From an uncultured Rubrobacteraceae bacterium (GTDB taxonomy: Bacteria; Actinomycetota; Rubrobacteria; Rubrobacterales; Rubrobacteraceae), in NCBI GenBank assembly GCA_902806095.1, contig CADCVF010000009.1, positions 1 to 52,718 on the forward strand: DNA of 52,718 bases, read 5' to 3'. A model generated the notes under the pieces. It was not told the origin of the DNA, did not search any database, and was given only the letters and a program-made list of their open reading frames with translations. Numbering within the stretch: the first letter of the stretch is position 1; each line of letters starts with the position of its first letter. Of this stretch, positions 15,670 through 30,303 are shown in pieces. The translations under genes and the position numbers were made by a program.

Positions 15670-17481
15670 ATCAGGGGCATTGAATCAATCGCAGGCACGC
15701 CGCAGGAGCGTGCCGACGACCGGGGTGCCACCACGCGGCGGCTCCTCGGAGAGCTGCGCCCTTACTCGGGCAAGCTGGCGCTCGTCCTCGGGCTCGTCTT
15801 GCTCGGGGCGGCGGCGCAGGCAGGTGGGCCGTGGCTGATCGGACGCGCCATAGACCGCCACATCCTGCCCGGCGACGTCGCCGGGCTCTCCAGGATAATG
15901 CTCGTTCTCTTCGGCGTGTATGTCGTCGGAGCCATAGCTTCGCGGGGCCAGGTCTACCAGGTCGGCTCCATAGGGCAGAGTCTTCTGGCCTCGATGCGGG
16001 CCAGGATCTTCGACAGGCTCCAGCACCTCCCCCTCGGGTTCTTCGACAGGAGGCCGGTAGGGGACCTGATGAGTCGCGTGACCAACGATGTCGACACCCT
16101 CAACCAGCTCTTCTCGCAGGGGCTCACCCAGCTACTTGGTTCCCTGTTCAGCCTCATCGGGATCGTCGTTGCGATGCTCTTCCTCGACTGGAACCTCGCC
16201 CTCGCTTGCTTCACGATCATCCCGATCATGCTCCTTTTGACGTCCTTTTTCGCGCGCCGCGCGAGACGCGCGTTCCGCCTGACGCGCGAGACGGTCGGGG
16301 ACGTGACAGCGGGCGTGCAGGAGGACATCGTCGGTGTGCGCGAGGCGCAGGCCTTCAACAGGACCGAGGAGAACATCGCCCGCTTCAGGCAGCGCAACGC
16401 CGCCAATCGCGACGCCAACGTGCAGGCTGTGGCGATCACCTCCGCCTTCGCCCCCACCATAGATATGCTCTCGACCCTGGCTACCGCGCTGGTCATAGGC
16501 TACGGCGGCTATCTCGTCTTCGCCGGCTCGCTCTCGGTCGGCATCCTGACGGCGTTCCTGATCTACGTCCAGCAATTCTTCCGCCCGATACAGCTCGCGT
16601 CCCAGGTCTACACCCAGGCCCAGGCCGCGGTCGCGGGCGCCGAGCGCATCTACCACATCCTCGACGAAGAGCCCGAAGCGGAAGACCCGCAGGACGCCCC
16701 GAAGCTCGGTGCCGCGAGCGGCCGCATCTCCTTCGAGCACGTGACTTTCGCGTACGACCCTGGCCGCCCCGTCCTGCATGACGTGGACTTCCGGGTCGAG
16801 CCAGGCATGACGGTCGCACTCGTCGGCCCGACGGGGGCAGGCAAGACGACGATCGCCAGCCTGATACCACGCTTCTACGACGCCACCGAAGGGAGGGTGC
16901 TCATCGACGGTAGGGACGTGACGAAGTTCGCCCGCAAAGACCTCAGGGCGAACATCGGGATCGTGCTCCAGGAGCCATTTCTTTTCTCTGGCACCATCGC
17001 GGAGAACATTGGATACGGCCGATCCGGCGACCCCTCGGAGGCGACCCGCGAGGAAGTCGAGGCCGCGGCCCGCGTGGTCAACGCCAGCGACTTCATCACG
17101 GCCCTCCCTGACGGCTACGATACGGTTCTGGGTGAGGGAGGCGGGGCACTCAGCCACGGCCAGCGCCAGTTGCTCTCTTTCGCAAGGGCGGTCCTGACAG
17201 ACCCGCGCATCCTCATCCTCGACGAGGCGACGAGCAACATAGACACGCGCACGGAGGCGATCATCCAGAGGGCCCTCGCCACGCTGCTTGCGGGCAGGAC
17301 GAGCCTCGTCATCGCCCACCGCCTGAGCACTATCCGAAACGCGGATCTCATCCTCGTCATAGAGGGCGGCAGCATGGCGGAGCGCGGTAGCCATGCAGAG
17401 CTTATACAGAAGAACGGCCTCTACGCGGACCTCTACCGCCGCCAGTTCCGTGAGCCCGTATCTTCAGGAGGACGGTCATGA
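15670..17481 (+). CDS. ABC exporter half-transporter with canonical ATPase site
   Basis: The second half of the exporter has a six-helix membrane domain and a nucleotide-binding domain with Walker A GPTGAGKTT, Walker B LILDEATSNID with the catalytic Glu, and an intact H-loop (VIAHRLSTIR). Its signature is altered to LSHGQRQ. In a heterodimer this altered signature would face the degenerate Walker site of the gene at 12810, leaving one active and one inactive site, as in TmrAB. Homology begins upstream of any ATG/GTG/TTG. An ATC at 15670 follows AGGAGG with a six-base spacer, which is ideal, and gives 603 residues. The TTG at 15799 would remove the first membrane helix. Confidence 0.87.
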   Translation: MRGIESIAGTPQERADDRGATTRRLLGELRPYSGKLALVLGLVLLGAAAQAGGPWLIGRAIDRHILPGDVAGLSRIMLVLFGVYVVGAIASRGQVYQVGSIGQSLLASMRARIFDRLQHLPLGFFDRRPVGDLMSRVTNDVDTLNQLFSQGLTQLLGSLFSLIGIVVAMLFLDWNLALACFTIIPIMLLLTSFFARRARRAFRLTRETVGDVTAGVQEDIVGVREAQAFNRTEENIARFRQRNAANRDANVQAVAITSAFAPTIDMLSTLATALVIGYGGYLVFAGSLSVGILTAFLIYVQQFFRPIQLASQVYTQAQAAVAGAERIYHILDEEPEAEDPQDAPKLGAASGRISFEHVTFAYDPGRPVLHDVDFRVEPGMTVALVGPTGAGKTTIASLIPRFYDATEGRVLIDGRDVTKFARKDLRANIGIVLQEPFLFSGTIAENIGYGRSGDPSEATREEVEAAARVVNASDFITALPDGYDTVLGEGGGALSHGQRQLLSFARAVLTDPRILILDEATSNIDTRTEAIIQRALATLLAGRTSLVIAHRLSTIRNADLILVIEGGSMAERGSHAELIQKNGLYADLYRRQFREPVSSGGRS

Positions 17482-17555
17482 CCTGACCCGAGAGGGCCGC
17501 TAGCTGTAATATTCGGGTTGGCGTTGGATATATCGGAGAGTGGGAGGAGTTTCAT

Positions 17556-18428
17556 ATGAGCGCGCTTCCGGAGAGAATACTGTTGCCGACCGACGGCTCG
17601 GAGGATGCCGTAAGGGCGACAGAGGCGGCCACGGACCTGGCTAAAAAGAGCGGGGCGGAGCTTCACGTAGTCCACGTCTGGCACGACGTGCGGGGGTTCG
17701 CCCACGACTTCGTCAAGAGGGAATTGAAGCGCCAGGGCCAGGAGATACTGGACGAGCAGGTAGAGAAGATCAGGGCCTCAGGCGGGGAAGTCGCGAAGGC
17801 CTATATCAGGAAGGGACGTACCTCCAACGAGGTAATCGCGCTCTGCAAGGAGATCGACGCCGGGCTCCTGGTCGTCGGCAGCCGCGGGCTTGGCACGGTA
17901 CAACGCATCCTGATGGGCAGCCAGTCCGAGGAGATCGTGCACCACGCCCAGGTCCCCGTGCTCGTACTTACAGGCGCAGAGGATTTCTGGCCCCCGGCCC
18001 AGATCGTCGTCGGCGAGGACTTCTCCGACGACGCGCGCAAGGCTGGAGAGCTCGCCGCCGGTATCGGCAAGCTCTACGACGCGGAGGGTCTGCTCGTCTA
18101 CTCTCATCCCGACCTACCAGAGGTTCCTCCTGGGGAGACGAGGTCAGCAGTCCAGAACCTCACGGAGATGCGCGAGCGGGACGAAAGCATGCTCGAAGAC
18201 AGGGCCGGCGCGCTGGAGGGGATACTGGGTAGCAGGCCACAGACCAGGATCTCCGGCGGCTATCCGGCCAACGTACTCCTCGAAGCCTCCCAGAGTGTGC
18301 GGCCCTCCCTCGTGGCCGTCGGCAGCAGGGGCCTGACGGGAATAATGCGGACCAGGCTGGGGAGCGTCTCGACCAAGGTCGTGACCGCCGCGCAAGGTCC
18401 GGTACTGGTCTATCCGCACGTCGAATAG
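17556..18428 (+). CDS. Tandem universal stress protein (two Usp domains)
   Basis: The 290 residues hold two Usp domains. The first (~5-140) begins [19 protein letters not shown] and ends with the ATP-binding loop [20 protein letters not shown]. The second (~145-288) begins [20 protein letters not shown] and ends [20 protein letters not shown]. Both G-rich loops match the ATP-binding GxxGxxxGS type. Universal stress proteins are cytosolic and modulate survival under stress; some Usp domains bind cyclic nucleotides, including c-di-AMP in KdpD. The start follows GGGAGGAG, and an AT-rich stretch (TGTAATATT) about 50 bases upstream may be a -10. Confidence 0.88.
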
Positions 18429-18447
18429 AGCAGCGCAAAGGAGAGTC

Positions 18448-18750
18448 ATGGCGTCTCAGACCACAGGAATCCACCATGTAACCGCCATCTCTGGCGGGCC
18501 GCAGCGCAACGTGGACTTCTACGCCGGCACCCTGGGCCCCAGGCTGATCAAGAACTTCCGTTCGATCTACTTCCGCGAGCCAGGCGGGGTGCCCTACGAG
18601 GTCGCCACAGACCCTCCTGGCTTCGCGGTGGAGGAGGACCCAGAACACCTAGGCGAAAATCTCGAGCTGCCGCCCTGGCTAGAGATCCGCCGCGACCGAC
18701 TCGAAGAGGTCCTCCCACCGTTGCGCATTCCGGCCGGAGAGAACGTATGA
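18448..18750 (+). pseudogene. Ring-cleaving dioxygenase (VOC family) with large in-frame internal deletion
   Basis: The 100-codon frame has a good site (AAAGGAG) and ATG. Its first ~35 residues ([20 protein letters not shown]) match the N-terminus of MhqO/LinE-type dioxygenases. It then jumps directly to the C-terminus ([19 protein letters not shown]). The intact homologue at 36680 in this window has about 225 residues between these points. The first metal-ligand His and the final Glu survive, but the His of the second VOC module (GVHHIAFRT in the homologue) is gone. It is probably inactive, although reading frame, start and coupling to the next gene (ATGA) are preserved. Confidence 0.78.
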
Positions 18751-19403
18751 GATCCGATCTCGATTTCACCCACCGCTACGTGCCTGGAGAAGATGAGTCA
18801 GGCTCAACACTGCTTGTGTTGCACGGCACGGGCGGAAACGAAGAAGACCTCGTACCGGTCGGACAAGCTCTTGCCCCGGGCGCTGCCGTACTCTCCCCCA
18901 GGGGTAAGGTCTCAGAGCACGGCGCCCCGCGCTTCTTCCGACGCCTCGCAGAAGGGGTCTTCGACCACGAGGACCTCCTTTTCCGCACGCACGAGCTCGC
19001 CGAGTTCGCGGAGGCCGCCTCCGAAGAGTACGGCTTCGACAGCTCGAAACTCGTCGCTGTCGGCTTCTCCAACGGGGCCAACGTGGCAGGGAGCACGATC
19101 CTGTTGCACCCGGGTCTGCTGCGGGCCGCGGTCCTGTTCAGGCCGATGGTGCCTTTCGAGCCCGATGTGACGCCGGATCTCTCAGGGATGCCCGTGTTCA
19201 TGGCAGCGGGGCGGTATGACCGCATGATCCCACCAGATAACACACAACGCCTAGCAGACATCCTGCTCGAAGCAGGGGCCGACGTGGACCTCCGCTGGCA
19301 CGACACAGGACACCCCCTGACTTACGATGATGTCAGCCAAGCGAAGAAGTGGCTTGCAGGCATACTGCCGAAGCTCTCCGAGGCCCAGGACGACAGACAG
19401 TAA
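18747..19403 (+). CDS. Alpha/beta hydrolase, MhqD/carboxylesterase type
   Basis: This 218-residue serine hydrolase has the nucleophile elbow GFSNGAN, the acid in [11 protein letters not shown] and the catalytic His in DTGHPLT. The oxyanion region is [15 protein letters not shown]. It matches the phospholipase/carboxylesterase subgroup that sits beside ring-cleaving dioxygenases (MhqD with MhqO in Bacillus). Its ATG overlaps the stop of the deleted dioxygenase. The hydrolase is complete, so it may have outlived its metabolic partner or serve the intact dioxygenase at 36.7 kb. Confidence 0.87.
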
Positions 19404-19489
19404 TCACCTACCCAAACGGCCAGGTTGCCGGGGGTGCTAGAATTTTTGTGGAGCGTCTGGATGATGTGCGGGCGCGATTTGAGGGATGA

Positions 19490-19507
19490 AACAATCATTT
19501 AACAATC
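19490..19507. promoter_or_regulatory. AACAATC direct repeat at 11-bp spacing upstream of REC-TrxR gene
   Basis: AACAATC occurs at 19490-19496 and again at 19501-19507, exactly 11 bases apart and 20 bases before the start codon. The spacing suits a response regulator of the OmpR/PhoB class. With only two units it could be chance. It is the only repeat I see in front of the signalling operon. A TAGAAT at 19437-19442 could be a -10. Confidence 0.3.
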
Positions 19508-19526
19508 GTATTTGAAGGGCAGGCAG

Positions 19527-21188
19527 ATGGCGAAGCCGGTGATACTGGCGGTTGACGACGACCCGCAGGTGCTGCGAGCCGTGGAGCGGGACCTCAGGCG
19601 CCGGTATGCTCGCGAGTACAGGATACTGCGGGCGAACTCGGGGGAGTCGGCGCTCGACACCCTGGGCAAACTCAAGCTTAGGGGCGACCCTGTGGCGCTC
19701 TTTCTGGTCGACCAGCGGATGCCGAAGATGACGGGCGTCGAGTTCCTGGAGGAGGCCATCGAGCGCTATCCCGAGGCCAAGCGTGCCCTGCTCACAGCCT
19801 ACTCGGATACAGAGGCCGCTATTCGTGCTATCAATGAGGTGGGCCTTGACTACTACCTGCAGAAACCCTGGGACCCGCCGGAGGAGACCCTGTATCCCAA
19901 TCTCGACGACATGTTGGGCGACTGGCGGGCCGACTACAGGCCACCTTTCACGGGGTTGCGAGTCGTCGGTGATCGCTGGTCCCCTGAATCGCACCGCACG
20001 CGGGAGTTCCTGGCCCGCAACCGTGTGCCTTACAGGTGGCTCGACGTAGAGGGGTCCGAGGAGGCGCGTGAGATCCTCACCAACGCCGACTCGAGAACGC
20101 CGAAGCTGCCACTCGTCGTCTACGAGGACGGCTCCTACGCCGAGGCACCCGAGAACCTGGAGATAGCCGAGAAGATCGGGCTGAAGACCCGCGCCGGGCA
20201 GCGGTTCTACGACCTGGTGATCGTCGGCGGGGGACCATCAGGCCTCGCGGCGGCGGTCTACGGGGCGTCAGAGGGCCTGAAGACCGTCCTTGTAGAGCGT
20301 GAAGCCCCAGGCGGGCAGGCAGGAACGAGCAGCCGCATCGAGAACTACCTGGGCTTCCCAGCCGGGCTATCGGGCGGCGACCTCGCGCGGAGGGCGGTGG
20401 ACCAGGCGAAGCGGTTCGAGGTCGAGATCCTGACGCCCCAGGAGGTTAGCATGGTGCGCGCAGAGGACCCTTACCGCATCGTGACGCTCGCTGATGGGAC
20501 GGAGATCTCTTGCTTCTCCCTGATCATCACGACCGGCGTCTCATATCGAAAGCTGGACGCTCCTGGTGTCGAGCGTCTCACGGGACGTGGCATCTACTAT
20601 GGTGCCGCCCAGACGGAGGCGCTTTCGTGCAAGAACGAGGACGTGTACATAGTCGGGGGGGCCAACTCGGCGGGCCAGGCCGCGATGTTCTTCTCCGGCC
20701 ACGCGCGCAAGGTGTTTATCCTCTACAGGGGCGACGACCTGAGGAAGAGCATGTCAGATTACCTGGTGCGCCAGATCGAGGACAGAGACAATATCGAGGT
20801 GCTCCTAGACACCAACGTGGTCGCTGTAGAGGGTAACGATCACCTGGAGCGGATAACCACGAAGAACACCAGAACGGGCGAGACCGAGACCGCACCGGCC
20901 CACTCGCTCTTCATCTTTATCGGGGCCGTGCCGACGACGGGGTGGCTCGATGGCGTCGTAGAACGCGACGAACGTGGCTTTGTGCTCTCGGGGCCGGATC
21001 TGATGCAGGAAGGGAAGCGTCCCGACGGCTGGCGACCCGATAGGGACCCGTTCCTGCTGGAGACGAGCGTGCCCGGCATCTTCGTCGCTGGGGACGTGCG
21101 CCACGGTTCGGTCAAGCGCTGCGCCTCCGCCGTCGGCGAGGGTTCCATCGCCGTCCAGTTCGTCCACCAGTACATGAGGGAGGTCTGA
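19527..21188 (+). CDS. Response regulator receiver fused to thioredoxin-reductase-like flavoprotein
   Basis: The 553-residue protein has three parts. Residues ~3-130 are a REC domain with acidic pair (AVDDDP), phosphoacceptor Asp (FLVDQRMP), Thr (LLTAYSD) and Lys (LQKPWD). Residues ~140-220 form a thioredoxin/glutaredoxin-like domain without a CxxC (GDRWSPESHRTREFL). Residues ~225-553 are thioredoxin-reductase-like, with FAD motif VIVGGGPSGLAAAVYGA, NADPH motif IVGGANSAGQAA and AGDVRHGSVKR. The redox CxxC of true thioredoxin reductase is replaced by LSCKNED. A phosphorylation-controlled NAD(P)H:flavin oxidoreductase or redox sensor is likely. It heads the operon with three histidine kinases that could phosphorylate it. 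ATG 19527 is favoured over TTG 19512. Confidence 0.9.
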   Translation: MAKPVILAVDDDPQVLRAVERDLRRRYAREYRILRANSGESALDTLGKLKLRGDPVALFLVDQRMPKMTGVEFLEEAIERYPEAKRALLTAYSDTEAAIRAINEVGLDYYLQKPWDPPEETLYPNLDDMLGDWRADYRPPFTGLRVVGDRWSPESHRTREFLARNRVPYRWLDVEGSEEAREILTNADSRTPKLPLVVYEDGSYAEAPENLEIAEKIGLKTRAGQRFYDLVIVGGGPSGLAAAVYGASEGLKTVLVEREAPGGQAGTSSRIENYLGFPAGLSGGDLARRAVDQAKRFEVEILTPQEVSMVRAEDPYRIVTLADGTEISCFSLIITTGVSYRKLDAPGVERLTGRGIYYGAAQTEALSCKNEDVYIVGGANSAGQAAMFFSGHARKVFILYRGDDLRKSMSDYLVRQIEDRDNIEVLLDTNVVAVEGNDHLERITTKNTRTGETETAPAHSLFIFIGAVPTTGWLDGVVERDERGFVLSGPDLMQEGKRPDGWRPDRDPFLLETSVPGIFVAGDVRHGSVKRCASAVGEGSIAVQFVHQYMREV

Positions 21189-21189
21189 G

Positions 21190-22611
21190 GTGCGGGAGGC
21201 CAAGGATGCGCGGGTCCTCGATTGCCTGCGCTCCGTGCCCCTCTTCCGGCAACTGCCCGACGAGAAGCTGGCCTGGATCCACGACCACGCAGAAGAGGTA
21301 AGGTTGGATGCAGGGACCGTGATCGCACGCCAGGGAGACCCGCCTGATGGCTTCTACGCCGTCATGGAGGGCGAGACCGAGTGGACCCGCAGGGTCGGCC
21401 AGGAGGACGTCTTCGTCGTCACGCTCGGGGAGGGTTCGATCTTCGCCGAGCTCATCATGGTCCTCGACGCCCCGTATCCCACGACCGGACACGCCCTCAC
21501 AGACGTCGGCTTGCTCAGGCTCGACGTGCCCTCCTTCTGGGAGATGCTCAGAGTTTGCCCCGAGGTCCTGCGCGGTATCCTAGCCACCTCAGTCGAACGC
21601 GCCGAACTGCACGAATCCGTCTCCCAGCAACATGGCAAGTTGATCTCGCTCGGCACCATGGCCGCAGGCCTCGCCCACGAACTGAACAACCCCGCTGCGG
21701 CCATAGGTCGCAGCGCCGCCGAAGCCCGCGAGGCCTTTCAGGACGCTTCGGAGAGAGCCGCGGAACTCGGAGGTCTCCCCCTCACCGAAGAACAACGCTC
21801 CTTCGTTGCCGGACTGCCCGCGGAGGCGGCGCGGAGGTCAGAGACCGCCGTCTCACTCGACTCGCTGGAAATGAGCGACCTGGAGGAAGACCTCGCCCTG
21901 TGGATGGAGGATCACGGCGTCGATGAGGGGTGGGAGATCTCCCCTACTCTGGCCGGCGCCGGGCTGGATACGGCCTGGCTCGAAGATCTCGCAGAGAGGG
22001 TGCCGGAAGAGGCGCTTGGCGGCGTTCTCGGCTGGCTGCGGGCGACGATGGCCGGTAGTGAGTTGCTGCGAGAGATCGAGGGCGGGTCTGCGCGCATCTC
22101 GGCGCTGGTCGGGGCGATCAAGACCTATACTCACATGGACAAGGCAGCCTCCAGGGAGGTCGACGTGCACGCGGGGTTGAACAGCACCCTGATCATGCTC
22201 GGACACAAGCTGAAGATGGGTGACGTGGAGGTCGTCCGCGACTACGAGAAGGACCTGCCCTATGTGTGCGGCCACGCCGGCGAATTGAACCAGGTGTGGA
22301 CGAACCTCTTGGATAACGCCATAGACGCCGTCGACGGCCAGGGCCGCATCACCGTCCGGACAGCCAGTGAGAACGGGAGGGTTATGGTCGAGGTCGCCGA
22401 CGACGGCCCAGGCATCCCCGAGGACGCAAGGGAACGCATCTTCGAGCCCTTCTACACGACGAAGGACGTGGGCGAGGGCACGGGACTCGGCCTCGATATC
22501 TCCTACCGCGTGGTCGTCGAGGACCACAAGGGGGATATCCGCGTCCTTTCCGAGCCCGGCGACACCCGCTTCCAGGTGCGACTCCCGATCTTCCCCGAGG
22601 ACCGCCCGTGA
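21190..22611 (+). CDS. Cyclic-nucleotide-binding-domain histidine kinase, copy 1
   Basis: This 473-residue soluble kinase starts with a GTG one base after the REC-TrxR stop. Residues ~10-135 form a cNMP-binding-type beta roll (GFYAVMEGETEWTRRV, GEGSIFAELIMVLDAPY). The Arg that binds the cyclic phosphate in cAMP-type domains is absent (PYPTTGHA), so cAMP binding is doubtful. The phosphoacceptor His lies in LGTMAAGLAHELNNPAAA. A ~150-residue insert precedes the second dimerisation helix (LVGAIKTYTHMDKA). The ATPase domain has the N-box GELNQVWTNLLDNAIDAVDG, ADDGPGIP and GTGLGLDIS. No membrane helices. It ends in a GTGA overlap with copy 2. Confidence 0.9.
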   Translation: MREAKDARVLDCLRSVPLFRQLPDEKLAWIHDHAEEVRLDAGTVIARQGDPPDGFYAVMEGETEWTRRVGQEDVFVVTLGEGSIFAELIMVLDAPYPTTGHALTDVGLLRLDVPSFWEMLRVCPEVLRGILATSVERAELHESVSQQHGKLISLGTMAAGLAHELNNPAAAIGRSAAEAREAFQDASERAAELGGLPLTEEQRSFVAGLPAEAARRSETAVSLDSLEMSDLEEDLALWMEDHGVDEGWEISPTLAGAGLDTAWLEDLAERVPEEALGGVLGWLRATMAGSELLREIEGGSARISALVGAIKTYTHMDKAASREVDVHAGLNSTLIMLGHKLKMGDVEVVRDYEKDLPYVCGHAGELNQVWTNLLDNAIDAVDGQGRITVRTASENGRVMVEVADDGPGIPEDARERIFEPFYTTKDVGEGTGLGLDISYRVVVEDHKGDIRVLSEPGDTRFQVRLPIFPEDRP

Positions 22612-24074
22612 CGACGTTCGACGAACTGCGCCGGATACCGCTGTTCGACGGTCTCTCCGACACAGATCTGGGCGGGGTGCTGGAACAAGGCACAGAGAAG
22701 GTCGTCCCCGCTGGCGAGGTCAACGGCAGGGAGGGAGAGCCGGTCGCGCACCTTTACGTAATCCTGGAGGGTGAACTCAGGATCACCAAGGAGGTGAACG
22801 GCGGCGAGGTGGTCATAAACACCTTCACGCCGGGCGCGTTCTTCGCCGAGGTGCCGCTGCTGGCGGGGACGCCGTTCCTCGCGACGGGAAGGGCGCTTAC
22901 GGACTGCCGGATGTTCCTGATCCCCAACGACCTCTTCAGGCGAATGCTGACGGAGTATCCTACCTTCAGCGACAGGATCCTTGAGACTATGGCCGAGCGA
23001 GTCCAGATCCTGCAGTCCGTCGCGGGCCAGCGCGAGAGACTGAACGCTCTAGGTACCCTCGCCGCAGGCCTCGCCCACCAGCTGAACAACCCCGCTGCGG
23101 CCGCCCGCCGCTCGGCAGAAGACCTGCGCGAGAGCCTGGAAGTGTTGCGCTCCACCGGAATGCGCCTGGCACGCACAACCGCTGGCGAGGAGTCGACGCC
23201 ATCGGCGCTCGAAGGGTTGGAACGGACGGTCGGCGACATCCTGAAGCGTTCCGAGGCGCAGGCCGAGAGGGTCTTCGATGAGTTGGAGCGGAGCGACCGG
23301 GAGGAGGAACTCGGCCTCTGGTTGGAGGATCGCGGCGTGTCGGAGGGCTGCGACATTGCCCCCTCCTTCGTCGCGGCCGGACTCGAAACCACGAGCCTCG
23401 AACCGATCCTGGAATCTGTGACGCCAGACCTGCACGCCGATGCGTTGCGTTACGTGCAGGCGGCGCTCGATGCGGCCTCTCTCGTCGGCGAGGTCGAGGG
23501 GAGCGCGCGGCGCATCTCCGGGATCGTGAAGACTATGGAGGGTTACTCCTACATGGATCGGACCCCCGTGCAAGAGGTCGACGTGAACGGGAGCCTCGAC
23601 GACACGCTGGCCGTGCTCGGCTACAGGCTCGAAGGTGTCGAGGTAGTCCGCGACTACGACCCCGATTTGCCCCGCGTCACGGCCTACGGCGGCGAGCTGA
23701 ACCAAGTGTGGACGAATCTCCTGGATAATGCCATAGACGCCGTCTCGGCCCTGGAAGGATCTGGCCGCATCAGACTGAGGACGGGCTGCGAGCGTGACTG
23801 CGTGCTGGTCGAGGTCGCCGACGACGGGCCCGGCATTCCGGAGGAGGATCACGCGCGCATCTTCGAGCCTTTCTTCAGCACCAAGGACGTCGGTAAAGGT
23901 ACCGGGCTCGGACTGGACGTGAGCTACCGCATCGTCGTGGGGCGCCACGGCGGGGACATCCACGTCATCTCGAGGCCGGGCGAGACTCGCTTCGAAGTGC
24001 GGCTGCCGGTAGATGGACCGGGCGACGCGCGGTCGGTCGACGGCAGGGACCTTCGGATGGAGGCGGGCTCATGA
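22608..24074 (+). CDS. Cyclic-nucleotide-binding-domain histidine kinase, copy 2
   Basis: This 488-residue paralogue of the preceding gene has the same order: beta-roll sensor (LYVILEGELRITKEVNGGEV, FTPGAFFAEVPLLAG), H-box (LAAGLAHQLNNPAAAARRSA), long insert, VKTMEGYSYMDRTPVQEVDV helix, and an ATPase domain with GELNQVWTNLLDNAIDAV, DDGPGIPEE and GTGLGLDVS. The cassette Glu is kept but the phosphate-binding Arg is missing (TPFLATGRA). The residue after the phosphoacceptor His is Gln instead of the Glu in copies 1 and 3, an exchange known to alter kinase/phosphatase balance in some HisKA proteins. The GTG start overlaps the previous stop, and ATGA joins it to copy 3. Confidence 0.9.
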   Translation: MTTFDELRRIPLFDGLSDTDLGGVLEQGTEKVVPAGEVNGREGEPVAHLYVILEGELRITKEVNGGEVVINTFTPGAFFAEVPLLAGTPFLATGRALTDCRMFLIPNDLFRRMLTEYPTFSDRILETMAERVQILQSVAGQRERLNALGTLAAGLAHQLNNPAAAARRSAEDLRESLEVLRSTGMRLARTTAGEESTPSALEGLERTVGDILKRSEAQAERVFDELERSDREEELGLWLEDRGVSEGCDIAPSFVAAGLETTSLEPILESVTPDLHADALRYVQAALDAASLVGEVEGSARRISGIVKTMEGYSYMDRTPVQEVDVNGSLDDTLAVLGYRLEGVEVVRDYDPDLPRVTAYGGELNQVWTNLLDNAIDAVSALEGSGRIRLRTGCERDCVLVEVADDGPGIPEEDHARIFEPFFSTKDVGKGTGLGLDVSYRIVVGRHGGDIHVISRPGETRFEVRLPVDGPGDARSVDGRDLRMEAGS

Positions 24075-25444
24075 TGCGCTCCACGCGGGAGGAGCAGAGC
24101 CTCACGCCCGAGCAGGTCGAGGCGCTCTTGCCCTACGGTATGGAGATGAGCCTGCAGACCGGAGACCTCCTCTTCGACGAGCGGTCCGTCGTTGACAGCT
24201 TCTACGTTGTGCTCGAGGGCGAGGTCGGGATCTCGCGCCTCGACGGCGCGGAGGAGATCCCGCTCGAGACTCACAGGACCGGCGAGTTCACCGGGGGGCT
24301 CGCGATACTTACGGGGAGAACCTCGATCCACAGGGCGAGGGCAGGCAAGCCGAGCCGCGTCCTCGAGGTCGACTGGGAGACCTTCAGGCGCGTGCCCGTC
24401 GAGCTTCCGGACGTGGCCGACGTCTTGATCTCTGGCCTGGCCAGGCGCATGCGCTATACGCAGCGGACCTACCGCCAACACGAGAAACTCGCGGCCCTGG
24501 GCAAGCTATCGGCCGGCCTCGCCCACGAGCTCAACAACCCCGCGGCCGCGGCGAGGCGGGCCTCCGAAGAGTTGGGCGGCGCGATCCTCGAGGCCCAGCT
24601 CACCGCGATCGGACACGACGAGCGCTTCTCCGCCGGCCAACGCGAGGCGCTCGTAGCCCTCCAACGCGAAACGGCCGAGGGCAACGAAACCCCACTCGAC
24701 CCGCTCGCCCTAGGCGACGCAGAGGATGAGCTCGCCGGGTGGTTGGAAGACCTCGGCTTCGATGAGCCGTGGAATGTGACGCCAGCGCTGGCGGCGGCAG
24801 GCGTTGACGTCGATCGTCTGGAGTCGCTGTCCGAGATACTCGATGACCGCCAGCTCGCCTGGGGTCTAGAGTGGCTCGCTTCGACGCTCGACCTCGTCGG
24901 CCTGGCCGGTGAGATCGGAACGAGCGCAGGACGCATCTCCGAGCTGGTCGGGGCGGTGAAGGAGTACACCTACATGGATAGGGCATCGCTCGGAGTGGTC
25001 GATGTGATCTCCGGCCTCGAGAACACCCTTACCATCCTCGGTCCCAGGTTGAAAAACGTCTCTTTGCGGCGGGAGTACGAGGAGAGCCTACCTGAGATAC
25101 TAGGACGCGGCGGCGAGTTGAACCAGGTATGGACCAACCTCATCGACAACGCGATAGACGCGGTGGACGGACGCGGTCTTATCACTATCAGGACGTACGT
25201 GGAAGGCGCGCGAGTGGTGGTCGAGGTCATCGACGACGGGCCTGGGATATCCCGCGAGGCGCAAGTCCACGTCTTCGAGCCTTTCTATACGACAAAGGAG
25301 GTCGGCGCCGGAACCGGGCTCGGGTTGGATATCGTGCGGCGGGTCGTTGCCGGTCACGGAGGCGAGATCTCGGTCCAATCGGAGCCAGGGGAGACCCGCT
25401 TCACGGTTCGGTTGCCAGTAGATACCACACAGAATGGAGATTGA
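24071..25444 (+). CDS. Cyclic-nucleotide-binding-domain histidine kinase, copy 3
   Basis: This 457-residue third paralogue has a beta-roll sensor (SFYVVLEGEVGISRLDGAEE, THRTGEFTGGLAIL), then LSAGLAHELNNPAAAARRAS with the phosphoacceptor His, the insert, VKEYTYMDRASLGVVDVISG, and an ATPase domain with GELNQVWTNLIDNAIDAVDG, DDGPGISRE and GTGLGLDIV. Here the cassette Glu has become Gly (TGGLAIL), while an Arg occurs nearby (TGRTSIHRA). The three copies therefore carry three different ligand cassettes on a conserved kinase core. This suggests separate signals feeding one regulator. The stop lies five bases before the diadenylate-cyclase gene. Confidence 0.9.
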   Translation: MMRSTREEQSLTPEQVEALLPYGMEMSLQTGDLLFDERSVVDSFYVVLEGEVGISRLDGAEEIPLETHRTGEFTGGLAILTGRTSIHRARAGKPSRVLEVDWETFRRVPVELPDVADVLISGLARRMRYTQRTYRQHEKLAALGKLSAGLAHELNNPAAAARRASEELGGAILEAQLTAIGHDERFSAGQREALVALQRETAEGNETPLDPLALGDAEDELAGWLEDLGFDEPWNVTPALAAAGVDVDRLESLSEILDDRQLAWGLEWLASTLDLVGLAGEIGTSAGRISELVGAVKEYTYMDRASLGVVDVISGLENTLTILGPRLKNVSLRREYEESLPEILGRGGELNQVWTNLIDNAIDAVDGRGLITIRTYVEGARVVVEVIDDGPGISREAQVHVFEPFYTTKEVGAGTGLGLDIVRRVVAGHGGEISVQSEPGETRFTVRLPVDTTQNGD

Positions 25445-25449
25445 TTTCG

Positions 25450-26037
25450 ATGGGTAAGACACAATTGTTCGAGGAGATCTGCTCTGAGAAGCGCCAGGTA
25501 AACACGCGGGTGCTCGAGCAGACCGTCTCGCTCGCGGTGGAGATCGCCCGCGAGGGCCGGGAGGGGCGAAAGATCGGGACGCTCTTCGTCGTCGGCGACT
25601 CGCGCGAGGTAACGAAGCGGTCCAAACCCATGATCCTCGACCCTCTGCACGGACACCCTGACGAGAGCAAGCAGATAGAGAACCCCGACATGCGGGAGAC
25701 CATCAAGGAATTGGCCCAACTCGACGGCGCCTTTCTCGTCTCGAACGCAGGCGTCGTGCTCTCGGCCGCCCGCTACATAGACGCGGCCTCGGACAGCCTC
25801 GAGCTGCCGCTCGGGCTGGGCAGCCGTCACATGGCAGGTGCTTCCATCTCCCGGCAGACGAGGGCCGTCGCCGTTGTCGTCTCGGAGAGCTCGATGGTCA
25901 GGATGTTCGACGACGGCGAGCTGGTCTCCGAGATCGTGCCCGAGCTCTGGATGATAGACGGCTACAGGAGCCGGATGGAGGGCCGCACCTTCACCCGCCG
26001 CGACGAAGATATGGCGGTGATTGGCCGTGCCGAGTAG
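25450..26037 (+). CDS. DisA_N-type diadenylate cyclase domain protein
   Basis: This 195-residue protein consists of a DisA_N/DAC domain, the fold that condenses two ATP to c-di-AMP. The two hallmark motifs are present: DGA in ELAQLDGAFLVSNAGVV (about residue 94) and the RHRxA-type loop as GSRHMAGASISRQTRAVAVV (about residue 125), followed by VVSES. The DNA-binding HhH domain of DisA and the membrane helices of CdaA are both absent. It is a soluble, stand-alone cyclase like those grouped under DisA_N in other Actinobacteria and archaea. GGAG lies 11 bases upstream of ATG 25450. It is the last signalling gene of the operon. Activity is inferred from motifs. Confidence 0.82.
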   Translation: MGKTQLFEEICSEKRQVNTRVLEQTVSLAVEIAREGREGRKIGTLFVVGDSREVTKRSKPMILDPLHGHPDESKQIENPDMRETIKELAQLDGAFLVSNAGVVLSAARYIDAASDSLELPLGLGSRHMAGASISRQTRAVAVVVSESSMVRMFDDGELVSEIVPELWMIDGYRSRMEGRTFTRRDEDMAVIGRAE

Positions 26038-26605
26038 GGCCGAGGAGGTGATCGACTTCTGGTTCGGACGTGAAGGCGAGCCAGGCTACGGCGAGTTCCG
26101 CGACGAGTGGTTCCGCAAAGACCCGGAGTTCGACGCCAGGGTCACGGAGCGGTTCGCCGATCTCTATGAGGAGGCTGCCGCAGGCGACCTCGACGACTGG
26201 CGCGACGACGCCAGGAGCTGCCTGGCGCTCGTCATCGTGCTCGACCAGTTCCCCCGCAACATGTTCCGCGGCGACGGACGCACCCACGCAGCCGACGGGG
26301 TGGCGCTCGAATCCTCCAGGTACGCGGTCGAGCACGCGCTGGACAGGGAACTCCCTGCTCTCCAGAGGATGTTCTTATACATGCCGTTCATGCACAGCGA
26401 GAACAGGCAGGACCAGCGCCGCTCCGTAGAGCTGTTCGGGCGGCTCGCGGATGAGCCAGGCGCGCCCGACGTAACCTCCTACGCCGCAGGGCACAGGGAG
26501 ATCGTCGAGCGGTTCGGACGGTTCCCGCACAGGAACGTGATCCTGGGCAGAGAGGCGAGATCTGAAGAGGCTGAGTTCCTGCAGACAGAGGGCTCTTCGT
26601 TCTGA
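26021..26605 (+). CDS. DUF924-family protein
   Basis: The 194 residues match the DUF924 (YP_/COG3803-like) all-helical family: AEEVIDFWFGREGEPGYGEF near the N-terminus, the central LVIVLDQFPRNMFRGD motif, the PFMHSENRQDQRRSVELF segment and GHREIVERFGRFPHRNVILG near the C-terminus. No biochemical role is established for the family. The TTG at 26021 (or GTG 26027) lies inside the 3' end of the diadenylate cyclase gene, so the two are coupled. Confidence 0.85.
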   Translation: MAVPSRAEEVIDFWFGREGEPGYGEFRDEWFRKDPEFDARVTERFADLYEEAAAGDLDDWRDDARSCLALVIVLDQFPRNMFRGDGRTHAADGVALESSRYAVEHALDRELPALQRMFLYMPFMHSENRQDQRRSVELFGRLADEPGAPDVTSYAAGHREIVERFGRFPHRNVILGREARSEEAEFLQTEGSSF

Positions 26606-26645
26606 GCAACAAGGCGGCGCGCAGTCCACATGGGAGACAGGCAGC

Positions 26646-28268
26646 TTGGCGAACATAGGCAATCCTCCGTGCGATGTAGGCGTCATACGTTCCCGGAAGG
26701 CAGACGCGCCGTGCGCGCCTAGCGCGGGTCCCTGGGTGCTCGCGGCGACGATTATCGGGTCGGCGATGGCCTTTATCGATGGCACGGTAACGAACGTCGC
26801 GCTCCCGCAGATACAGGAACGACTCGGGGCGACGGCCACCGACTCGCAGTGGATCGTCGAGTCCTACGCCCTGTTCTTGGCGGCCTTGATCCTGGTCGGC
26901 GGCTCCCTCGGGGACCATTACGGGCGCCGTCGTATCTTCACTCTGGGGATCGTCGTCTTCACGCTCGCCTCGGTGTGGTGCGGGCTCTCCACCAGCCCCG
27001 AGATGCTGATCCTAGCCCGCGCCGTACAGGGCGTGGGAGGCGCGATGCTCGTTCCTGGCTCCCTGGCTATTATCAGCGCCTCTTTCGACGGGGACGCGCG
27101 CGGGAAGGCCATAGGCACGTGGTCGGGGCTCTCGGGGGTAACGACCGCCCTCGGTCCTGTCCTCGGCGGTTTCCTGGTCGAGAACGTCTCGTGGCGGGCC
27201 GCTTTCCTGATAAACGTGCCGCTCGCCATCGCGGTACTGCTCATCGTCGCAAGGTACGTCCCCGAGAGCCGCGACCCCGACGCCAGAAAGCTCGATATTA
27301 TCGGCGCGGCGCTCGCGACGTTCGGGCTCGGCGGCGTGGTGTTCGGCCTGATCACCTCGGCAGAGGCAGGTTTCACCGACCTCGTGGTGATGCTCTCGCT
27401 CGGGCTCGGGGTCGCGGCTCTCGTTGGTTTCGTCGTGAGAGAGCGGCGGACGGAGGAGCCGATGATGCCGCTTAGTCTGTTCCAATCCAGGAACTTCACG
27501 GGGGCGAACCTCCTGACGATGTTGTTGTACGCGGGGCTCGGCGGGGCGTTGTACTTTCTGCCCTTCCTCCTGATCCAGGTCCACGGCTACTCGGCCACGG
27601 CGGCGGGTAGCTCGTTCTTGCCCTTCACTATCATCACGTTCCTGATCTCCCGGTGGGCCGGTGGCCTGGTAACCCGTTTCGGGGCTCGGCTGCCGCTGAT
27701 GATCGGCCCCGTCATAGCCGCCGCCGGCTTCGTGCTGTTCGCCCGGCCAGGATTGGGCGGCTCTTACTGGACGACGTTCTTCCCCGCTATCGTGGTGCTC
27801 GGCCTCGGGATGGCCCTCGTGATAGCGCCGCTTACGACGACGGCCATGAACTCGGTCTCGGGCAGTCACTCAGGCCTGGCCTCCGGCGTCAACAACGCCG
27901 TCTCCAGGACCGCCGGGCTGCTCGCGATCCCCGTGCTTGGTATCTTCGTCTTCCTGGTCTTTTCCGGCGGCCTCGACACCAGGGTGCAGAGCCTGGATCT
28001 CTCACCGCAGGCCCAAGAGCAGCTCGAGGCGGAGAAGGTGAACCTCGGCGGGGCGGAGGTCCCTTCCGGCGTAAGCCAAGAGACGGGGGTGAAGGTCGAA
28101 CGTGCCATCCAAGAGTCGTTTCTGGCTGGCTTCAGGCTCGCGATGTTCATAGCCGCGGGCCTGGCTGTCGCGAGCGCGGTCGCGGCGGCGGTCATAATGG
28201 AGGGCAAGGGCCGCACCGCCCAGACCAAGAGGATAGGCCAACATGAAGGCAAAACGGCACCCGCCTGA
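26646..28268 (+). CDS. MFS exporter, DHA2 family (EmrB/QacA type)
   Basis: This 540-residue integral membrane protein has about 14 transmembrane helices. Signatures include FIDGTVTNVALPQIQERLG in helix 1, GGSLGDHYGRRRIF (motif A) and the conserved LARAVQGVGGAMLVPGSLAI helix. Such proteins export drugs and dyes by H+ antiport. A poorly conserved ~60-residue loop precedes the last helix (~residues 430-495). It starts at TTG 26646 behind GGGAG, 40 bases after the DUF924 gene, so it may be the end of the signalling operon. It converges with the phosphotransferase gene. Confidence 0.88.
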   Translation: MANIGNPPCDVGVIRSRKADAPCAPSAGPWVLAATIIGSAMAFIDGTVTNVALPQIQERLGATATDSQWIVESYALFLAALILVGGSLGDHYGRRRIFTLGIVVFTLASVWCGLSTSPEMLILARAVQGVGGAMLVPGSLAIISASFDGDARGKAIGTWSGLSGVTTALGPVLGGFLVENVSWRAAFLINVPLAIAVLLIVARYVPESRDPDARKLDIIGAALATFGLGGVVFGLITSAEAGFTDLVVMLSLGLGVAALVGFVVRERRTEEPMMPLSLFQSRNFTGANLLTMLLYAGLGGALYFLPFLLIQVHGYSATAAGSSFLPFTIITFLISRWAGGLVTRFGARLPLMIGPVIAAAGFVLFARPGLGGSYWTTFFPAIVVLGLGMALVIAPLTTTAMNSVSGSHSGLASGVNNAVSRTAGLLAIPVLGIFVFLVFSGGLDTRVQSLDLSPQAQEQLEAEKVNLGGAEVPSGVSQETGVKVERAIQESFLAGFRLAMFIAAGLAVASAVAAAVIMEGKGRTAQTKRIGQHEGKTAPA

Positions 28269-28353
28269 GGTGAACATCTATAATGAGATTCATTGACTGT
28301 TCCAACGGCAGCGCCGTGAACGGCGACGCGGACGTCGTGGAGGCTTACGGCGG

Positions 28354-29355
28354 TTACCTTATCGAGCCCTTCGTGAGCGCCCCCGTGGGACGAGGAGCTC
28401 CTGGGGGTGGAGGCCGAAGTGAGAGCGTCGGCGGGCGGTCCGCGCGTACCGCATCCAGATGCGGGTCGAATTTTGCGCTGCTCATACGCGCCGTGCAGCG
28501 TTCGAGTCTCCCCAGAGCATAGCTCCAGAAGTCCTCCGCCGGGTTGTCTTTCGCGTGCTGGACGAAGCCCCAGAGAGACCAGTGGAGGTCGCTCATTGCT
28601 TTATAGAGCTCCAGACGCGAGTAGAGCGCAGGAGAAGCTGCGCCGTCGCAGTAGGCCTCCAGCATCAGGCGGTCTTGCTCCGGCCCGAACCCAGCCTCGA
28701 CGGAGAGGTCTCCAAGGTCCCACATCGGATCGTTCATGCCTGAGTATTCCCAGTCGATGAGATAGATGCGCGCTCCCGCATCCAGTAGGTTCCCAGGCCA
28801 CGGGTCATTGTGGCAGGGTACGAGCGGGACAGGGGAAGCCTCCAGCGCCAGGCGTACCGCCCTCGCCTTCTGTCCTACCTCGTAGTACTCCTGCGGCAGC
28901 GTCGGGGGCCATCCGCCTAAGAGCTTGACGTAGTCCTCGATCTCGGCGAAGACATCGAAGCGGGACGCGAAAACCTTTCTCAGGCGGTGAACCCGCTTGA
29001 GCAGCAGCGCTGCCCTGATCGGCGCCGCGACTTCCCTGCTCCAGTCCTGCTCCCCGTGCATAGAAATCCCTTCGACGAACCGGGTTACCATCGTGCCGTC
29101 TTCAGCATCGAAGTAAATAACCTCTACGTTGATACCGGCTGCTGCCGCAACCCTCGCGTTGTGCTTCTCTGCGGCCCGGTCTATATAGTCGGAGGTACCT
29201 TCTCCGGCGATCCGCAGCACGTAAGCTGCTGCACCCGCCGTCACCTTGTAAGAGACGTTGGTTAAAGTGCCGCTGAGTGGTTCGAGTTTGATCTCTTCTT
29301 GCCGTAGGTTCCTGAACAGGGGCACGCGCGCGAGCGCAGCATACACTCTCTCCAA
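28354..29355 (-). CDS. Choline/ethanolamine-kinase-like phosphotransferase
   Basis: This 333-residue protein has the APH/choline kinase fold. The nucleotide region is PLSGTLTNVSYKVTAG, the catalytic loop VPCHNDPWPGNLLDAG (His-x-Asp with downstream Asn) and the metal-binding DWEYSGMNDPMWDLGDLS. The last two are typical of choline kinase/LicA rather than aminoglycoside kinases. It would phosphorylate choline or a related amino alcohol. The favoured start is TTG 29355 behind GAGAGGAG; ATG 29397 is an alternative. The C-terminal ~30 residues are Pro-rich and unrelated to the family. An 11-bp-period array lies upstream. Confidence 0.85.
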   Translation of the reverse strand: MERVYAALARVPLFRNLRQEEIKLEPLSGTLTNVSYKVTAGAAAYVLRIAGEGTSDYIDRAAEKHNARVAAAAGINVEVIYFDAEDGTMVTRFVEGISMHGEQDWSREVAAPIRAALLLKRVHRLRKVFASRFDVFAEIEDYVKLLGGWPPTLPQEYYEVGQKARAVRLALEASPVPLVPCHNDPWPGNLLDAGARIYLIDWEYSGMNDPMWDLGDLSVEAGFGPEQDRLMLEAYCDGAASPALYSRLELYKAMSDLHWSLWGFVQHAKDNPAEDFWSYALGRLERCTARMSSAKFDPHLDAVRADRPPTLSLRPPPPGAPRPTGALTKGSIR

Positions 29356-29408
29356 TCCTGCTCCTCTCTTGTATCCGTTTAGAAAGGCGCTCCCCAACGC
29401 CCATGATG

Positions 29409-29452
29409 TGGTTAAACGATTGTAAACGCTATGTTAACCGTGCACAAACTGA
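29409..29452. promoter_or_regulatory. 11-bp-period direct repeats upstream of the phosphotransferase
   Basis: Consecutive 11-base units on the plus strand are TGGTTAAACGA, TTGTAAACGCT and ATGTTAACCGT, with a weaker GCACAAACTGA after them. The GTTAAAC/GTAAAC/GTTAACC core resembles that of the array at 30366-30409. The site lies 54 to 97 bases upstream of the TTG start and between two minus-strand genes. I read it as a binding site for the same winged-helix regulator. Confidence 0.5.
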
Positions 29453-29475
29453 GGAGCGTTCGAAACCTTGCGAGA

Positions 29476-30303
29476 CTATCTTCTGGAAGCGTAAACGATG
29501 GTTGCCTGGCCGATGTGGCCGCGCAGGGCGTCGTTGCGCGCCACATAGGTCTCTAACTCTCCTCGCTCGTCCAGCTTACGGAGCCTGGATAGCGCGTGGT
29601 CCAGGCGATCTCCGGCGACCAGCGACCAGACTGAATCTCCGTCCCGCCACTCCTGGTTCAGGGGACCGCGGGGGTCGAAGTAAGACTCGCCCTGTACCGT
29701 GGCGTCGACCGGCGCGAAGCTTCCCCGGTGCGCGAAACCGCAATCATCGAGGATTTCGAACAGCTCGTCGAGGGGGACGTAGCGGTTTCGGAGAGCATCG
29801 GCGGCCTCCGGGATCAGGGGGTAGTGCCAGTAGCCGTGGCGCAGCTGCTCTTGGGAGCAGGTGCTGACCGTGAGGATGCCGCCTGGCTTCAGAACCCTGG
29901 CAAATTCTCTGAAGGCCAGGCGATGGGCAGGGAATCCTTCTGAGGCATCGTCAGGGAGGTGGTGGAGTACCTGGTTGATCATGACCCCGTCGAGAGTCGC
30001 CTCCTCGAAGGGCAGCTCATCGATCCTCGAGGAATGGAAGGAGATACGGCCCTCTGCCCAGGCCAGCTTGCGCGCGGCGGCCTCGAGCATGCCTGGATTG
30101 AGGTCTACAGCCTCGATTCGTCCGACGTAACCGAGCAGCGCCTCGGAGTAGCTACCCGTGCCACACCCTGCATCCAGTATCACCGTCCGATCCAAAGGCA
30201 CCGGCGCGTGGGCGAGGCAGCCTATGATGACCTCGGTCCCGACCGGCTCCCTGGTCCTGTCGTAGTTACCGGATTTGTGCGTGTAGTTCTCGTAGCTGCT
30301 CAA
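29476..30303 (-). CDS. Class I SAM-dependent methyltransferase
   Basis: This 275-residue protein has the Rossmann methyltransferase motifs in order: motif I VILDAGCGTGSYSEALLG, the acidic motif II RIEAVDLNPGMLEAAARK, motif III region DGVMINQVLHHLPDD and motif IV/post-IV FARVLKPGGILTVSTCSQEQ. It is in the UbiE/arsenite-methyltransferase-like Methyltransf_11 group, and the acceptor cannot be predicted. It is transcribed divergently from the TIM-barrel isomerase gene. The four-unit 11-bp array at 30366-30409 lies 63 bases or more upstream, so both genes could be under the same regulator. Confidence 0.85.
   Translation of the reverse strand: MSSYENYTHKSGNYDRTREPVGTEVIIGCLAHAPVPLDRTVILDAGCGTGSYSEALLGYVGRIEAVDLNPGMLEAAARKLAWAEGRISFHSSRIDELPFEEATLDGVMINQVLHHLPDDASEGFPAHRLAFREFARVLKPGGILTVSTCSQEQLRHGYWHYPLIPEAADALRNRYVPLDELFEILDDCGFAHRGSFAPVDATVQGESYFDPRGPLNQEWRDGDSVWSLVAGDRLDHALSRLRKLDERGELETYVARNDALRGHIGQATIVYASRR

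Follow-up and report, generated by a model that had tools for sequence, protein, structure and literature searches.

The reading that we favour is that three adjacent histidine kinases of an uncultured Rubrobacteraceae bacterium sense differing ligands other than cAMP, or none, and together serve one flavoprotein response regulator in a single two-component system; on balance we think this probable. The genes lie in the window, by which we mean the whole stretch of DNA analysed (52,718 nucleotides), where five plus-strand genes are packed closely. The first encodes RR-TrxR (19527-21188, with an alternative TTG start at 19512), in which a receiver, a glutaredoxin-like segment and a thioredoxin-reductase-like flavoprotein are fused (Pfam Response_reg and Pyr_redox_2). 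It is followed by a trio of CNBD histidine kinases spanning 21190-25444, HK1 (21190-22611), HK2 (22608-24074) and HK3 (24071-25444), whose open reading frames overlap at the HK1/HK2 and HK2/HK3 ends and which all score above the Pfam cut-offs for cNMP_binding (PF00027) and HATPase_c. The fifth gene (25450-26037; Pfam DAC, 73.6 bits) encodes a DacZ-like, diadenylate-cyclase-like protein, and 3' of it stand a gene that we take to be DUF924-like and, after that, an MFS transporter gene. An Rfam scan of window positions 17000-30000 returned no match.

Cassette residues, conservation and predicted fold of the sensor domains

The sites that contact cAMP were located by alignment to E. coli CRP and to the published cassette consensus (PMC2246266). 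The HK1 cassette FAELIMVLDAPYPTTG (21442-21489, plus strand) is of the Tyr type, with Glu87 present, Tyr96 in place of the Arg and P52 at the β2-β3 loop site, while the Phe-type cassette of HK2, FAEVPLLAGTPFLATG (22842-22889, plus strand), has Glu81, Phe90 and V46 at the same three positions. The HK3 cassette TGGLAILTGRTSIHRA (24290-24337, plus strand) contains neither contact residue, Gly76 standing in place of the Glu and Ser85 in place of the Arg, with V40 in the loop. Two hallmarks about 45 residues apart are absent from HK1, HK2 and HK3 alike, namely the cassette Arg (equivalent to PKA Arg209) and the β2-β3 loop Gly (equivalent to PKA Gly169), and these two residues are reported to co-evolve (PMC2246266). 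An alignment artefact hiding the Arg was ruled out, the 9-residue spacing being canonical and free of gaps and the loop Gly being missing too. The Arg of 'GRA' in HK2 is at Glu+13, off the phosphate site, and Arg83, Arg88 and Arg90 of HK3 lie at +7, +12 and +14 relative to the Glu site. The earlier note had described the first two copies as keeping the Glu without the Arg, and the third as lacking the Glu with Arg residues nearby; the alignment bears out both descriptions. A further Arg, aligning with CRP Arg123 in the C-helix, is found in each kinase (R137 in HK1, R131 in HK2 and R126 in HK3) and in 76 of the 101 homologues described below, and its retention might leave a positive charge close to the pocket.

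Mean pairwise identity of the 17-residue cassette was compared with that of the rest of the domain among Rubrobacteraceae orthologues (5 for HK1, 6 for HK2 and 7 for HK3). The cassette is the more conserved part in HK1 (89% versus 64%), HK2 (89% versus 72%) and HK3 (72% versus 55%), and for HK1 the cassette's own sliding window is the only one of 105 to attain cassette-level identity. A degenerate or pseudo-sensor was ruled out on these values. Because the cassettes are conserved, the Arg is absent from most of the family and the three lineages are separate and old (see below), the cassettes look re-purposed and not degraded.

Structure prediction of the N-terminal domains, which the earlier note had suggested as a check, gave a CNB fold for HK1 and for HK3. 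In the AlphaFold models the fold is intact (domain pLDDT of 91.2 for HK1 and 88.0 for HK3), the cassette helix is present, and a long C-terminal helix is predicted to point towards the kinase. The best structural match of the HK1 model is cAMP-bound GlxR (Z 19.2) and that of the HK3 model is Vfr (Z 17.0), with cAMP-bound CRP, GlxR and PKA structures among the neighbours.

The wider kinase family and its canonical members

A scan of 84,980 species' genomes was narrowed to the best 80 loci, which span Cyanobacteria, Actinobacteria, Chloroflexi, Acidobacteria, Verrucomicrobia, Bacteroidetes, Proteobacteria, Planctomycetes, Armatimonadota and archaeal MAGs. Cassette residues were counted in 101 near-complete homologous kinases from about a dozen phyla. 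The phosphate site lacks Arg in 95 of these and holds it in 6; aromatics predominate (Tyr 28, Phe 20, Trp 4), the remainder being Ser (19), His (10), Ala (5) and a few others, and the cassette Glu is present in 54 of the 101. The canonical consensus GELSLLTGGPRSATVRA is not matched by HK1-3, and its Arg is found only in the 6 relatives and in a fourth kinase of the window's own genome. The loop Gly accompanies the Arg, occurring in 5 of the 6 Arg members versus 1 of the 95 others (Fisher p 4.5e-7, uncorrected for relatedness), an association behind which few independent events seem to lie. On a tree of the kinase core, built without the sensor domain, the Arg members cluster (2 changes versus a shuffled mean of 7.8), and HK1, HK2 and HK3 fall into three separate groups, each with its own orthologues. 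The absence of the Arg thus appears to be an ancient family trait, and the residue was probably not lost in the HK1-3 copies themselves. The earlier claim that the sensors have diverged stands as far as the three distinct non-canonical cassettes go; a loss of the Arg in these copies is the part that the family-wide counts do not favour.

Tandem kinases with differing cassettes also occur in cyanobacterial loci (for example L023). Two further cassette types were noted, an actinobacterial one that combines Tyr with a longer loop and an Ala in place of the Glu (L045, L054, L077 and 15 further loci) and an acidobacterial one reading GxLPFSRM (L039, L040, L081, L087, L089 and L092). In the 7-kb flanks, the kinases and RR-TrxR are the only gene families whose recurrence is convincing.

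Within the window's genome a clear Glu+Arg cassette is present in only 3 of 14 CNBD matches, so that lack of the Arg is not rare there. The fourth family kinase, on contig C46 (L014 6918-8381), has the canonical cassette GEMALLEQAPRSASV together with the loop Gly, is frame-broken within the sensor, and groups with the Arg-bearing members on the kinase-core tree; two further clear Glu+Arg CNBDs are located on contigs C11 and C52. The C46 kinase adjoins a class III nucleotidyl cyclase fragment. The genome contains 8 class III cyclase matches, and cyclic nucleotides may be present in the organism. In a relative (G026) an Arg-type kinase, likewise one of the clustered Arg members, adjoins an RR-TrxR that is 66% identical to the window's, so that canonical and non-canonical sensors occur beside the same kind of output.

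Kinase cores and the receiver-flavoprotein

HK1-3 have an H-box, and their N, G1 and G2 boxes are intact; the proposal that the kinase cores are conserved holds with one exception, the H-box of HK2. This reads HQLNNP (23076-23093) where the HK2 orthologues have HELNNP, a change unique to the window's HK2; the residue following the phospho-acceptor His normally assists phosphotransfer, and the kinase or phosphatase activity of HK2 may be changed. Across 82 family members, 206-241 residues (median 212) separate the phospho-acceptor His from the N-box Asn (21676-22317 in HK1, 23076-23729 in HK2 and 24524-25150 in HK3), a distance that in typical kinases such as HK853 and EnvZ is about 90-100 shorter. 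The DHp hairpin seems to be interrupted by a conserved insertion of about 100 residues, for which Pfam has no match.

In RR-TrxR the receiver's phospho-acceptor Asp (in VDQRMP) and Lys (in QKPWD) are intact, as are the dinucleotide motifs. Its gene neighbours a kinase gene in about 65 of the best 80 loci, across phyla, with several of the others cut by contig ends, and this gene order makes RR-TrxR the likely shared phospho-target of HK1-3. None of 68 full-length RR-TrxR homologues contains a CxxC: the glutaredoxin-like site is RWSPxSH and the thioredoxin-reductase site is YYGAAxTEA (YYGAAQTEA in the window protein, whose two CxxC-less sites are encoded at 19974-19994 and 20595-20621). Assignment as a thioredoxin-disulfide reductase (TIGR01292) was rejected, the score of 222 bits falling below the 343 cut-off and the active-site CxxC being missing; because the CxxC is absent, the protein is not a thioredoxin reductase by that enzyme's defining feature. 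As both redox cysteine motifs are lost, an NAD(P)H-flavin oxidoreductase or a flavin switch is the more likely role. Some TrxR-like ferredoxin/flavodoxin reductases lack the CxxC. Ferredoxin/flavodoxin reductases of the TrxR-like type are described in a published account (PMC10294844). In the open-access literature, where absence proves little, we found no paper on a receiver-thioredoxin-reductase fusion.

Candidate mechanism, alternatives and relation to known systems

In the two-component system that we favour, each kinase would begin with a CNB fold whose C-helix continues into the dimerisation/phospho-acceptor helix, a coupling comparable to that of CRP, where the same helix drives the DNA-binding arm. 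The pockets would have been remodelled: neither the phosphate Arg nor its coupled loop Gly is present, and the Arg site is taken by conserved, clade-specific Tyr, Phe or Ser. Pockets altered in this manner probably do not have cAMP or cGMP as their natural ligand. HK1 and HK2, with the ribose-contacting Glu, could hold a phosphate-free or aromatic small molecule, while HK3, without either contact residue, would most likely use another ligand or act ligand-free. All three would set the phosphorylation of the adjoining receiver-flavoprotein.

Loss of the Arg taken by itself is weak evidence against cAMP. A PKA RIα mutant of the same Arg keeps cAMP activation, with only about 5-fold lower sensitivity (EC50) (PMC6440977), and therefore Arg loss alone does not exclude cAMP. 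Continued binding of cAMP or cGMP, at lower affinity or with another residue such as the C-helix Arg meeting the phosphate charge, gains in plausibility from the mildness of that mutant, from the intact CNBD fold with cAMP-bound CRP, GlxR and PKA as nearest structures, from the Glu of HK1 and HK2, from the C-helix Arg retained in all three kinases and from the cyclases encoded in the genome. We nevertheless regard it as quite unlikely, since the case against cAMP appears stronger once the missing loop Gly, the conserved replacement residues and the canonical paralogue are added: both coupled hallmarks are absent from HK1-3, HK1 and HK2 have fixed bulky aromatics at their phosphate sites, the cassettes are conserved in their altered form, and the same genome retains a canonical paralogue. 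CNB-homology domains of channels offer a precedent for a plugged, ligand-free CNBD. A pocket plugged by its aromatic residue, the CNBD serving as a dimer or protein-interaction module with no diffusible ligand, would suit the hydrophobic residues at the phosphate site, the lack of both contact residues in HK3 and the long helix directed at the kinase in the HK1 and HK3 models. It would fit less well with the strong conservation of the cassette, which few parts of the domain match and which is easier to explain by a ligand than by a plug, and with three different clade-specific solutions, and we consider it unlikely.

Much less probable still is that the sensors bind c-di-AMP supplied by the downstream cyclase, although HK3 and the cyclase gene are separated by 5 bases and the latter lies 3' of HK3 in every relative read for both. 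The earlier note took this neighbour as a pointer to a dinucleotide ligand, a suggestion that we do not uphold: nothing beyond likely co-transcription links the cyclase to the sensors. Of the 39 genomes of the class 30 have its gene, in most cases with no HK3-type kinase, whereas any kinase of the HK1-3 family is found in only 13 of the 39, and one genome (G033) has the order alpha/beta-hydrolase, DAC, DUF924 without the RR-TrxR/kinase gene cassette. That gene cassette appears to have been deleted in two relatives, draft assemblies in which misassembly is possible, although the two breakpoints differ: in G002 (L153 3380-3545) the first RR-TrxR codons are joined to a remnant of the HK3 3' part, and in G001 (L162 3590-3790) parts of the receiver are joined to the last HK3 codons. 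Behind each apparent deletion stands an intact DAC gene, 88% (G002) and 85% (G001) identical to the window's. The gene is absent from loci of other phyla (in the flanks read of the best 80 loci), while the non-canonical cassettes extend over about a dozen phyla without it. On its class-wide presence and its intactness at the deletion sites, c-di-AMP coupling through the downstream cyclase was rejected. The DAC-like protein itself is shorter than the DacZ model (NF041371) and scores 132.7 against a cut-off of 430; it keeps DGA, but RHR has become RHM in all orthologues read (GSRHMAG in the window), and changing RHR to AAA abolished the activity of Mtb DacA (PMC3328451). The other, DisA-like cyclase of the same genome (contig C78, L107 546-1628) has RHL where RHR is expected.

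A bolder form of our preferred reading, which we put forward only tentatively and hold to be rather unlikely, is that the aromatic- and His-type kinases form a new sensor class for small molecules or cofactors that are not nucleotides (haem, flavin or an aromatic metabolite, for example). They would switch a flavin oxidoreductase that lacks the cysteines and is controlled by phosphorylation, and the tandem kinases would let three signals of different chemistry converge on one flavoprotein. CNB domains receive a cAMP-sensor annotation as a matter of routine, and this is a kinase family mostly without the cAMP signature, linked to an unstudied receiver-flavoprotein and keeping one canonical clade as a natural control. 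As one scaffold, beside the same output, comes in Tyr, Phe, Ser, His, Trp and Arg types, ligand switching in CNB domains could become directly measurable.

Among known systems the closest in architecture is the HisK CNB family of Kannan et al. 2007 (PMC2246266), which has the same CNB domain N-terminal to a histidine-kinase ATPase; its consensus is the canonical one given above, whereas HK1-3 have Tyr, Phe and Ser for the Arg and HK3 also lacks the Glu. The CBS-linked bacterial CNB family (Kannan family 22, consensus GERALLAGGPYSLTARA, PMC2246266) shares with HK1 a Tyr at the phosphate-Arg site and, unlike HK1, is fused to CBS domains and has no kinase. The kinetoplastid PKA regulatory subunit (PKAR), which is cAMP-independent and activated by nucleosides, resembles HK1 and HK2 in keeping the Glu and having a neutral residue for the phosphate Arg (PMC6440977), and the HK1 model has the T. 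cruzi protein (6hyq) as one of its structural matches (Z 17.2). It differs in its marker, a Glu at Glu+2 where HK1 has Ile89 and HK2 has Pro83, in that the Arg site is aromatic in HK1 and HK2, and in that their output is a bacterial kinase; with the Glu+2 hallmark missing, a kinetoplastid-type nucleoside pocket was rejected for both.

CooA, NtcA, CprK and FNR, the last a CRP-fold Fe-S sensor, share with HK1-3 the CRP fold and a non-canonical cassette, have non-nucleotide ligands and, unlike the kinases, are transcription factors. Ligands of non-canonical CRP folds include haem (CooA), chlorophenols (CprK), 2-oxoglutarate (NtcA) and nucleosides (trypanosome PKAR) (in part PMC2246266 and PMC6440977). 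HK1-3 were searched for the residues that mark CooA, NtcA and trypanosome PKAR, and have none of them. The CooA haem-ligand His stands where HK1 has Tyr, and NtcA, the best PDB sequence match of HK3 though a weak one (E 1.6e-7), has Arg at the cassette site and Val for the Glu where HK3 has Ser85 and Gly76; a role for HK3 as a 2-oxoglutarate sensor is not supported, the NtcA cassette Arg aligning with Ser85. The last comparison comes from the window's own genome, where on contig C4 (L106 932-2596) a CNBD with a non-Arg cassette (FLGELNMLTGQAMYLSA) is directly fused to a homologue of the TrxR-like module of RR-TrxR; a single protein without kinase or receiver, it is a one-protein counterpart of the two-component system.
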